Assembly (NCBI RefSeq): GCF_900114615.1
Contig: NZ_FOTS01000041.1
Span: forward strand, 1-46,326
DNA length: 46,326 bases
Direction: 5' to 3'
From: Pelosinus propionicus DSM 13327
Lineage (GTDB): Bacteria > Bacillota > Negativicutes > DSM-13327
Both the position numbers and the translations under genes were made by a program. The stretch's first letter is position 1, and each line of letters opens with the position of its first letter. Below, in pieces: positions 35,018 through 38,915 of the stretch. The notes under the pieces were generated by a model. That model did no database searches, was not told the origin of the DNA, and was given only the letters and a program-made list of their open reading frames with translations.

Positions 35018-36862
35018 ATGTGTGGAATTGTAGGATGGATAGATTGGGAAAGAAACCTTGAAAATGAGGGCCATATAATGGCCAACATGATGGAAACGTT
35101 AGCAGCTCGTGGGCCTGATGCTTCAGGTATGTATTTAACAAAGCACGCGGCATTAGGGCATCGGCGTCTTAGTGTAGTCGATCTAGAAAATGGAGCACAG
35201 CCTATGATTCGGGATAGAGGGCAGCGACGCTATGTAATAACGTATAATGGAGAACTGTATAATACTCCTGAATTAAGGCAAGCGTTAGAAGCTCTAGGAT
35301 ATGTCTTTCGTACCAATTGTGATACGGAAGTGTTGTTAACTGCATATATAGAATGGGGTCCTTCTTGTGTAGAAAAATTCAATGGTATCTTTGCTTTTGG
35401 TATTTGGGATGAAACAGATCGCACTTTATTTCTTGCTCGTGATCGTATTGGTGTCAAACCTTTATTTTATACGAGACAAGGTAGCAAATTTATTTTTGGT
35501 TCAGAATTAAAAGCATTGTTAGCTCATCCAGAAATTAAACCAGAAATAGATAGCGAAGGCTTGGCAGAAGTACTTATTATTGGGCCTGCACGAACGCCAG
35601 GTCATGGTGTATTTCGTAATATAGCAGAGCTTAGACCAGGACACAGTATGTTGTATAGCGAAAAGGGCATGTATCTTTGTCAATATTGGGCATTGGAAAG
35701 TATGCCTCATCCAGATGATTTTGATACCACGGTGGAAACTGTACGAGAGTTGATGCAAGATATTGTAAAGCGCCAATTAGTCGCTGATGTTCCTGTTTGT
35801 ACCTTATTGTCAGGCGGACTGGACTCGAGTGCATTAACTGCTCTGGCATGCAGTACATATCGCCAGCAAGGTTTAGGTGATCTTCATACCTACTCTGTAG
35901 ATTATCTTGATAATGCACAGTATTTTCAAGCAAACAGCTTTCAGCCTAATGCTGATGCTCCCTGGGTACAGCGTGTTTCTGAATTTTTTGACACACGTCA
36001 TCACAATATTATTCTGGATACGCCTGAATTAGCAGGCAGTCTGCCTCAGGCTACAATATCAAGGGACTTACCAGGTATGGCCGATGTCGATACCTCTTTG
36101 TATCTATTTTGCCGTGAAATAAAAAAGGGAGCCACGGTTGCTTTATCTGGTGAATGTGCTGATGAGGTATTTGGCGGTTATCCTTGGTTTTATCGGGAAG
36201 ATATGATTAATGCCTCCTGTTTCCCATGGTCGCCTAATTTAGATGTACGTATGCAGTGGTTATCGTCTGAAATGAAATCAGTAACAAAGGCTCATGATTA
36301 TTTACAGCAACGTTATCAAGAAGCATTAGCCGAAGTGCCGCGTCTGCCTGGTGAGGATGCAAAGGATGCCCGTATGCGAGAAATCTTCTACTTGAGTCTA
36401 ACACGATGGATGCCTACTTTACTTGATCGCAAAGACCGCATGAGTATGGCTTCAGGCTTGGAAGTTCGAGTGCCATATTGCGATCATAGACTCGTTGAAT
36501 ATGTATGGAATGTACCATGGCATATGAAAAACTTCCATGATCGAGAAAAAGGTCTTTTACGACAGGCATTAGTGGGAATTTTGCCTGAAGATGTTTTATG
36601 GAGACGCAAGAGTCCTTATCCAAAAACCCATAATCCTTCTTATTTGAACGCTGTTCGCTTGTGGGTTCTACAAATTTTAGATGATACATCTTCGCCATTA
36701 CGAAGAATCGTGGATGTGGATAAAGTACGTGCAATGGCTCAACAGAATGCTGAAATATCAAATATACCCTGGTTTGGTCAGCTTATGTCGAGTGTTCAGT
36801 TATTTGCTTATTTGATTCAGGTGGATACTTGGCTCAGAGAGTATAAGGTGCAGCTGGTATAG
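35018..36862 (+). CDS. asnB: Asparagine synthetase (glutamine-hydrolysing)
   Basis: Makes asparagine from aspartate, ATP and glutamine. The class II glutaminase domain starts with MCGIVGW, so Cys2 is the nucleophile after Met removal, and has RGPDASG and YNGELYN. The synthetase domain carries the PP-loop LSGGLDSS (about residue 265), SGECADEVFGGYPW and DRKDRMSMASGLEVRVPYCDH. 614 aa, normal length. It starts at ATG 35018 after AAAGGAGATGG. It is an ordinary AsnB rather than a lasso-peptide cyclase, since the N-terminal glutaminase is intact. Confidence 0.94.
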   Translation: MCGIVGWIDWERNLENEGHIMANMMETLAARGPDASGMYLTKHAALGHRRLSVVDLENGAQPMIRDRGQRRYVITYNGELYNTPELRQALEALGYVFRTNCDTEVLLTAYIEWGPSCVEKFNGIFAFGIWDETDRTLFLARDRIGVKPLFYTRQGSKFIFGSELKALLAHPEIKPEIDSEGLAEVLIIGPARTPGHGVFRNIAELRPGHSMLYSEKGMYLCQYWALESMPHPDDFDTTVETVRELMQDIVKRQLVADVPVCTLLSGGLDSSALTALACSTYRQQGLGDLHTYSVDYLDNAQYFQANSFQPNADAPWVQRVSEFFDTRHHNIILDTPELAGSLPQATISRDLPGMADVDTSLYLFCREIKKGATVALSGECADEVFGGYPWFYREDMINASCFPWSPNLDVRMQWLSSEMKSVTKAHDYLQQRYQEALAEVPRLPGEDAKDARMREIFYLSLTRWMPTLLDRKDRMSMASGLEVRVPYCDHRLVEYVWNVPWHMKNFHDREKGLLRQALVGILPEDVLWRRKSPYPKTHNPSYLNAVRLWVLQILDDTSSPLRRIVDVDKVRAMAQQNAEISNIPWFGQLMSSVQLFAYLIQVDTWLREYKVQLV

Positions 36863-36998: not shown

Positions 36999-37361
36999 TT
37001 AACAGTCTTGCCGCGGCCAGCAATCTTGTCGCGGCCAGCATCCTCGTCGTGGCCAGCATCCTTGTTGCGGCCAGCATCCTTGCTGCGGCCAGCATCCTTG
37101 CTGCGGCCAGCATCCTTGCTGTGGCCAGCATCCTTGCTGTGGCCAGCATCCTTGTTGCGGCCAGCATCCTTGCTGTGGCCAGCAATTTTGTCTAGGCCAG
37201 CAACTTTGCCTAGGCCAGCACAGTCTAGGAGCACAAGTATGGCGAGGTGTGCAGCCTATAGCAAAACCTACTCCAATAGTTGAATGATAAGATTTTGCTC
37301 GAGATTCTAGGTCTTCGTCCCAATCCTCAATTTCAGGGGTTCCCCACTCCTTATAATCCAT
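36999..37361 (-). CDS. Cys-rich hexapeptide-repeat protein (possible RiPP precursor or structural protein)
   Basis: 120 aa. The non-repeat N-terminus (about 40 residues, acidic, starting MDYKEWGTPEIEDWDEDL and containing GVGFAIGC) is followed by twelve hexapeptides of the form CWP(Q/R)(Q/R)x: first CWPRQS and CWPRQN, then seven CWPQQG, CWPRRG and two CWPRQD, ending in Cys before TAA. A clear ribosome site (AGGAGG) precedes ATG 37361, and only this minus-strand frame has one, so it is the coding frame although the 18-bp repeat opens others too. It recalls Cys-rich repeat bacteriocins such as sonorensin-type precursors, or metal-binding or coat proteins. No RiPP maturation gene is adjacent. Family not recognised. 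Confidence 0.6.
   Translation of the reverse strand: MDYKEWGTPEIEDWDEDLESRAKSYHSTIGVGFAIGCTPRHTCAPRLCWPRQSCWPRQNCWPQQGCWPQQGCWPQQGCWPQQGCWPQQGCWPQQGCWPQQGCWPRRGCWPRQDCWPRQDC
37015..37220. repeat. 18-bp tandem repeat, 12 units
   Basis: GGCCAGCA recurs at exactly 18-base steps from 37015 to 37213 (12 times). The middle units are nearly identical (GGCCAGCATCCTTGCTGC) while outer ones drift, as expected from expansion by slippage in the centre. The repeat is richer in GC than its surroundings and encodes the CWPxxx hexapeptides on the minus strand. Confidence 0.95.
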
Positions 37362-37767
37362 AAGTATCGCCTCCTGACTTGCGAGAATCTTAAAGATGAG
37401 TTAGTTCAAATGGGAGATTAACTTAACATGAATCATAGTTGCTCTTAAATGCTACTTGTATATAGGTATCTTGCCCCTCTAAAACGCACTTAGTATGAGT
37501 AAAAGCCTGTTTTTTCTGATGCAGGGATTAAAGATTATAAAAAGATATCTTACTATATAATATGCTTTATGATACATAAGAGTGATTGATTTAAATTGCA
37601 TAAAGAGCTTGTTTATTAAGTTTTTTCTGCAAACTTTGTAGATTTTTATTTATGATAACAAAAGTATAATGTGTTTCTTATTATTGCAAAATGGATATGA
37701 AATCTTAAAGGATTCATGTAGCATTTTAGCGAAGTATACAGGAAAGAATGTGAGGATGTGTTAATAA
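37362..37767. other. 406-base gap without a recognised gene
   Basis: This AT-rich stretch should hold the divergent promoters of the Cys-rich repeat gene (ribosome site near 37370-37376, minus strand) and of the following small gene. A TATAAT at 37665-37670 is the best -10 candidate for the plus strand but lacks a clear -35. No conserved RNA was recognised. Confidence 0.5.
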
Positions 37768-38246: not shown

Positions 38247-38549
38247 ATGAAAGGTTTTGTTAAAAAAGGAATCATTTTCTCGCTAATTGGGGTTATGCAG
38301 CTTGGTATAGGGGCATCAGTAATCGAAGCATCACCCAAACATGAGAATAGAAACCATAAGCAGCATTGGGATAATCGAGATCATAGGATTCAAGAAGAAC
38401 GGGATCGTCATGAAAGAGAAATGGCACGACGAGATCATGAAGAAGAATGGCAATGGAAAGAACGTCAAAAAAGAGAAAAAGACCACCATGAAGAAGTCAT
38501 GAGAACGCTTGGAGGAATTGCATTACTCTACATATTAACCAATAATTAA
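38247..38549 (+). CDS. Secreted charged, His-rich small protein (paralogue 1)
   Basis: 100 aa with a signal peptide (MKGFVKKGIIFSLIGVMQLGIGASVIEA-S) and a highly charged body rich in His, Arg, Glu and Asp, probably helical (ERDRHEREMARRDHEEEW). It ends with a short hydrophobic tail (GGIALLYILTNN). It has a strong AAAGGAGG site. Its signal peptide is nearly the same as that of the next gene, 31 bases downstream, so the two arose by duplication. A periplasmic metal-binding or envelope stress role is only a guess from composition. Confidence 0.7.
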   Translation: MKGFVKKGIIFSLIGVMQLGIGASVIEASPKHENRNHKQHWDNRDHRIQEERDRHEREMARRDHEEEWQWKERQKREKDHHEEVMRTLGGIALLYILTNN

Positions 38550-38579: not shown

Positions 38580-38915
38580 ATGAAAGGTATTGTTAAAAAA
38601 GTAGCCATATATACTATGGTTGGTATCATGCAAGTTGGTTTTGGTGCATCAATAATAGAGGCTTCACCATTACAAGGCAACCCTACTCCTATGCAGTTTG
38701 GATATGACAGACATGATCAAGGTCATGATAGACATGATCGTGAACGCTGGGAAAGAGAAAAACAAAGGCAAGAACGTCTTGAGAATGAAAGGCACGAAAG
38801 AGAAATGAAACGTCGTCCACATGAGACGAGAAAACAATGGCGTGAACGTCAGAAACACGAAAACGAGCGACACGAAAGAGAGCTGCGCAAAATCAGAGAG
38901 CATAGGTATAGATAG
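38580..38915 (+). CDS. Secreted charged, His-rich small protein (paralogue 2)
   Basis: 111 aa; signal peptide MKGIVKKVAIYTMVGIMQVG ... ASIIEAS, then a His/Arg/Glu-rich body with repeated RHDRE and ERHERE patterns, likely a long helix. It lacks the hydrophobic tail of its neighbour and ends EHRYR. GAGGAGG precedes ATG 38580. Same operon as paralogue 1. Family not recognised. Confidence 0.7.
   Translation: MKGIVKKVAIYTMVGIMQVGFGASIIEASPLQGNPTPMQFGYDRHDQGHDRHDRERWEREKQRQERLENERHEREMKRRPHETRKQWRERQKHENERHERELRKIREHRYR

Follow-up and report, generated by a model that had tools for sequence, protein, structure and literature searches.

Cysteine-rich repeat peptides of spore-forming Pelosinus relatives: probable late-sporulation products modified by a dedicated radical-SAM enzyme encoded elsewhere

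Results

The window, the whole 46,326-nt stretch of Pelosinus propionicus DSM 13327 DNA that was analyzed, carries on its minus strand a short gene for a leader followed by a repetitive cysteine-rich core. Its features are as follows.

36999–37361, minus strand: putative precursor open reading frame (ORF), 120 residues plus stop codon (ATG start, TAA stop)
37254–37361, minus strand: acidic leader, residues 1–36, conserved family-wide
37320–37346, minus strand: leader motif WGTPEIEDW (W-x-x-P-E-I-x-x-W)
37251–37274, minus strand: GVGFAIGC, residues 30–37, at the border of leader and core
37005–37220, minus strand: twelve CWPxxx units of 18 bp each
37370–37375, minus strand: ribosome site AGGAGG, 8 nt before the start
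37557–37583, minus strand: predicted sigma-K-type promoter AC-N17-CATATTAT, then ATA (family consensus GTA)
37381–37545, minus strand: 165-nt stretch from promoter to ribosome site, single-copy in the genome, with about 20 nt instead in genome G003

This ORF is confirmed as a real gene. Tandem Repeats Finder gave an 18-bp period with 9.9 copies at 91% match (37007–37184), and the core in frame reads CWPRQS, CWPRQN, seven CWPQQG, CWPRRG and two CWPRQD, followed by a final Cys. Together with the strong ribosome site, this bears out the first-pass annotation of a Cys-rich protein of twelve CWPxxx units encoded by an 18-bp tandem repeat. The repeat region is also spanned by other long frames. Searches with the annotated frame revealed homologues of 81% identity over 120 residues in G003, where the surroundings are syntenic, and of 74%–76% identity in four further genomes of the genus, all of them keeping the unique leader. 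Furthermore, the repeat differences between the window ORF and G003 fall mostly on the third codon position (3, 10 and 29 at positions 1, 2 and 3), in agreement with the frame that had been chosen. The copy number had also been expected to change fast, an expectation that finds no support in the 12, 12, 12, 11 and 11 CWPxxx units of the five orthologues in the genus.

The window protein has no match in Pfam or NCBIfam at E ≤ 1; a heterocycloanthracin/sonorensin-like bacteriocin was considered and dropped, as no NCBIfam model matched at this threshold. A lasso-peptide link via the neighbor at 35018–36862 was likewise rejected, given its 250.9 bits on the lasso cyclase model against a cut-off of 525; this neighbor reads as an ordinary asparagine synthase (asn_synth_AEB, 528 bits, cut-off 267.1). 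Elsewhere in the window, two similar short proteins are encoded in tandem on the plus strand (38247–38549 and 38580–38915), with a signal-peptide-like start, a highly charged His/Arg/Glu-rich body and no family match above cut-off.

The window ORF belongs to an unnamed family with a W-x-x-P-E-I-x-x-W leader and a core of C-x-P repeats. A protein search of 60 genomes, including its own, at E ≤ 0.01 yielded matches in 25, the weakest of which (G053 and G057) are possibly due to chance. The own genome has five distinct family places; in G003, ten matches fall on eight places, two of the matches being antisense to repeats already counted. We gathered 51 distinct frames by motif from the loci, one of which (L041) is the core half of a frameshifted gene. 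Most of them show W-x-x-P-[ED]-[IM]-x-x-W, in many cases together with ERQ and a glycine/aromatic stretch, ahead of the C-x-P repeats; the simple leader pattern is absent from five. The residue after Cys varies (Trp, Phe, Tyr, Ser, Asn and others), the constant residues being Cys and Pro, and each peptide has 12–17 Cys. Three relatives of the window precursor gave nothing significant in Pfam. The family thus has the form expected of RiPP precursors, a ribosomal peptide with a conserved leader and a variable or repeated core.

One paralogue of the own genome, on contig C103, adjoins genes that by eye look phage-like on a contig predicted to be viral; family members may therefore travel with prophages. 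One IMG/VR contig (L246, 2001–2261) has a protein identical to this paralogue; the idea of a viral family was rejected.

The first-pass annotation had likened the protein to a leader plus core and proposed a search for homologous N-termini beside maturases. Such N-termini exist: homologues with a W..PE[IM]..W leader (RPKW.RPEM type) are encoded immediately after the gene for a protein of about 410 residues, whose Radical_SAM and SPASM domains exceed the Pfam cut-offs and whose N-terminal domain is RRE-like by modelling. In the own genome this maturase gene (L037, 7467–8699, contig C79) adjoins trigger factor, clpP and clpX, which likewise flank it in G054, from another family. The cysteines of its CxxxCxxC motif (C107, C111 and C114) and eight C-terminal cysteines are invariant in nine sequences, leaving both the radical-SAM and SPASM cysteines intact.

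A maturase scan with one genome per species gave 52 loci, comprising 28 close ones (L104–L131, 53%–96% identity), five distant ones (L132–L136, 36%–41%) and 19 fragments or remote radical-SAM proteins. The close loci are found in Pelosinus, Sporomusa, Lucifera, Anaerospora, Propionispora, other Negativicutes or Bacillota, and one Ruminiclostridium. In 23 of the 28, a C-x-P-rich ORF adjoins the maturase (upstream of it in L122, L125 and L130), so that the modifying enzyme sits beside a family member, an arrangement not shared by the window copy. Among the five misses, L114 and L117 have degraded remnants in which the leader can be read by eye; L129 consists of a contig fragment, and nothing of the kind is present in L124 or L128. 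Four of the five distant loci also have such an ORF beside the maturase, and one distant genome, G405, has two in tandem. In a sample of the phylum, the maturase was found at E ≤ 1e-45 in two of 398 genomes, the own genome being one.

Some loci have features of their own. Degraded precursor remnants, seen by eye, follow an intact maturase at about 5230–5340 in L117 and 5240–5300 in L114. In P. fermentans JBW45 (L105, 5258–5620 and 5380–5586), the maturase-linked precursor is frameshifted inside the repeat, with the leader and most of the core in two frames, which may reflect a sequencing error, a pseudogene or slippage. In Ruminiclostridium sufflavum, of the Clostridia, a maturase of 57% identity is preceded by an ORF with C-x-P repeats (L130, 3297–3869), perhaps a case of horizontal transfer. 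Past the precursor, two Pelosinus loci carry an amino-acid permease-like gene and then a gene for a Coat_F-domain protein, two genes past the maturase-linked precursor (L037, 4153–4641, 92.8 bits; L048, 9045–9542, 91.2 bits). No dedicated exporter or leader peptidase was recognized in the three maturase loci read, the nearest candidates beside the maturase being the housekeeping clpP and the permease-like gene.

Modelling suggests that the first 80 residues of the maturase adopt a fold like a RiPP recognition element (RRE). Since the full-length model was weak (pLDDT 66), residues 1–95 were modelled separately from 31 sequences (pLDDT 82). The best matches of this model are lasso-peptide B1 RREs (Z 10.6, 9.6 and 9.4) and PqqD (Z 8.4), with Z 5.6–7.4 against the RRE parts of TigE, 5wgg/5why and SuiB; Foldseek alone gave E 0.008 at best, and VIA-align also listed NO66/MINA53-type oxygenases at Z 4.5–6.9. 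The enzyme is thus predicted to bear the RRE fold of a RiPP maturase. Among the 25 best NCBIfam matches listed for the maturases, none exceeded its cut-off; the three tested reached 106.5–119.1 bits on TIGR04193 (Grasp-with-spasm, cut-off 175) and 70.5–79.5 bits on TIGR04403 (sporulation killing factor maturase, cut-off 300).

The maturase and the scattered precursors have a common promoter, AC-N17-CATATTATGTA, which by its sequence fits the late mother-cell factor sigma-K. Statistics covered 113 distinct genes with a script-set start, namely 91 precursors and 22 maturases. CATANNATG lies within 140 nt of the start in 58 of the precursors and 20 of the maturases, against 1.4 of 113 expected from shuffling (maximum 5 in 200 trials). 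AC stands exactly 17 nt before CATA at 60 of the 78 sites, other spacings from 12 to 23 occurring one to nine times, and at 31 of 46 (background 2.4) when Pelosinus and near loci are set aside. ATA was found 13, 14 and 15 nt before at 1, 1 and 0 of the 78 sites. In Clostridioides difficile, sigma-E and sigma-K share a similar −10 element, and the −35 element is ATA or AC (PMC3789822).

By reading, the 33 precursors lacking CATANNATG comprise 21 second genes behind a maturase, four one-base variants and eight without the element. The window copy is among these eight, with its promoter farther out, a one-base variant AC-N17-CATATTAT at 37583–37557; the same C. difficile source names CATATTAT as a mother-cell −10 (PMC3789822). 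Its CATA is 203 nt from the start, compared with 57 in the orthologues (about 146 nt farther), because 165 nt replace about 20. In sequence, the family and the window copy have the AC −35, 16–18-nt spacing and CATA-type −10 of a sigma-K regulon.

Twenty further, hand-picked positions were checked for the promoter. It fits in L111, L114, L118, L120, L121 and L127; L109 has the −10 without AC at 16–18 nt; L122, G013 and G034 have weaker forms, and G025 only the loosest. None was found in L124, L125 or L128, nor in the distant L130 and L132–L135, which indicates that the maturase is not intrinsically a sporulation enzyme. Plain CATATTATGTA is only partly specific, with 84 sites in seven genomes versus 25 in the reversed control, many without a plausible gene behind; with AC-N17 the counts are 59 versus 17 in five genomes, several lacking a gene or preceding unrelated ones. 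NCBIfam and Pfam searches with nine proteins encoded behind the promoter, eight of which are small or unnamed, returned nothing beyond DUF2935 and weak sub-cut-off matches, so that these proteins are no proof of a coat regulon. The same pattern precedes small proteins in L203, L232, L202, L229, L206, L227 and L228, including a Cys/His-rich one, a zinc-ribbon-like one and short acidic coiled-coil-like ones, which are candidate sporulation proteins.

We compared the distribution of the precursor profile, the maturase and SpoIVA across one common set of 300 genomes from the class, which gave 46, 50 and 51 matches, respectively. Maturase and SpoIVA occur together in 46 genomes, maturase only in 4, SpoIVA only in 5 and neither in 245; for precursor and SpoIVA the numbers are 44, 2, 7 and 247, and for precursor and maturase 44, 2, 6 and 248. 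Each pair gives a Fisher p below 1e-41, the genomes being related and no tree used. The maturase gave a single match in 49 of the 50 genomes carrying it and is found in 28 of 97 genera, as is SpoIVA. The mismatches include G004, G007, G122 and G134, which are 65%–87% complete. True or possible exceptions are G014, G032 and G048 (94%–99% complete), with SpoIVA and no maturase, and G037 and G043 (92%–93%), with the maturase and no SpoIVA. The maturase is thus not needed for sporulation, given the former three genomes.

Discussion

Family, leader, maturase linkage, RRE-like fold, shared promoter and SpoIVA co-occurrence were all obtained by computation. In every computable respect the system behaves as a radical-SAM RiPP system would, and it reaches the cut-off of no named family. 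With moderate confidence, we propose a RiPP-type system in which a single maturase serves dispersed substrates, with synthesis in the mother cell and incorporation into the spore coat. The peptides are probably late-sporulation products modified by a dedicated enzyme encoded elsewhere, and perhaps building material of the outer spore layers. In this model, the window ORF would encode a precursor peptide of such a system in spore-forming Negativicutes. The maturase would bind the leader motif W..PEI..W via its N-terminal RRE-like domain and modify the C-x-P core; one substrate is usually encoded beside it, and the scattered ones, including the window copy, would be modified in trans. Maturase and precursors would be transcribed from sigma-K promoters at a late stage in the mother cell, and the product would be retained there and deposited on the spore as a cross-linked peptide with a structural role. 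As cysteine is the constant residue, the cross-links are most likely thioethers, although a C–C link at the aromatic-Pro-Arg part is also conceivable. Retention of the product in the mother cell is most likely, given that the three loci read show no recognizable exporter or leader peptidase dedicated to the system. The leader and promoter of the window copy suggest that it is a substrate; its separation from the maturase, variant promoter and long 5′ leader weigh against the proposal. The coat-protein idea of the first-pass annotation gains indirect support from the promoter, the SpoIVA co-occurrence and the presence, in two genomes of Pelosinus, of a Coat_F gene not far from the maturase.

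Several known systems share parts of this design. The thioether-forming maturase 5wgg/5why, which we take to be CteB of the SCIFF type, resembles the maturase in its RRE, radical-SAM and SPASM parts, its Cys-rich substrate and by structural match; the SCIFF core differs from the C-x-P repeats found here. Grasp-with-spasm is the best NCBIfam model for two of the three maturases tested, via the C-terminal SPASM part; unlike that system, the three loci read have no recognizable ATP-grasp gene. TigE, a radical-SAM enzyme acting on a repeating core, is another structural match. A precedent for one radical-SAM enzyme working repeatedly along a repeating core is TvgB, whose TVGG core, in contrast, lacks Cys and for which no sporulation link is seen in the part of the source consulted (PMC9062424). 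The C. difficile sigma-K coat genes cotA and cotE have the same promoter type, an AC −35 and a CATA-type −10; the consulted part of the source does not describe them as leader-bearing precursors (PMC3789822).

The position of the window copy and most paralogues away from the maturase would also suit a plain, unmodified cysteine-rich protein of the spore coat or outer layers, hardened by disulfides, with the radical-SAM enzyme acting only on the adjoining copy. The promoter type and SpoIVA co-occurrence would hold regardless of modification. However, unlinked and linked copies have the same W..PEI..W motif, and precursor and maturase go together in 44 of the 300 genomes, with only two precursor-only cases (drafts of 85%–87%) and six maturase-only ones, so we regard this reading as unlikely.

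A secreted antibacterial or cannibalism RiPP of sporulation appears far less probable. It would resemble the sporulation killing factor of Bacillus subtilis, whose SkfB, a sporulation-linked maturase of the radical-SAM/SPASM RiPP type, is our maturase's best sequence match in the PDB (6efn, E 4.4e-18) and its first Foldseek match. In contrast, the present system has many large repeat precursors, a promoter of late mother-cell type and a TIGR04403 score far below cut-off, and neither an ABC exporter nor an immunity gene was recognized in the three loci read. We consider it equally improbable that the peptide, whether modified or not, binds or stores metal and is loaded in the course of sporulation. 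Metal reduction is a known trait of Pelosinus, and the many cysteines of each peptide would suit this role; yet their spacing, C-x-P-x(1-3)-C, is unlike the common C-x-x-C metal motif, and the loci read have no metal-transport gene that consistently adjoins the maturase.

Radical-SAM RiPPs have mostly been studied as antibiotics, signals or cofactors. Here, the maturase tracks sporulation capacity across the class and shares a late mother-cell promoter type with its scattered putative substrates, suggesting a structural role in the spore. The system is not described in the open-access papers searched, an absence that is weak evidence. As a bolder and more tentative idea, to which we give somewhat less than an even chance, the spore coat of spore-forming Negativicutes may be partly RiPP-built, with a mother-cell radical-SAM enzyme stapling scattered peptides of tandem C-x-P repeats into rigid, cross-linked rods resembling keratin. 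If true, RiPP chemistry would serve as structural material rather than as antibiotic, signal or cofactor; a maturase acting many times along one repeat would be of interest for peptide stapling, and the little-known spore envelope of the diderm Negativicutes would become approachable.
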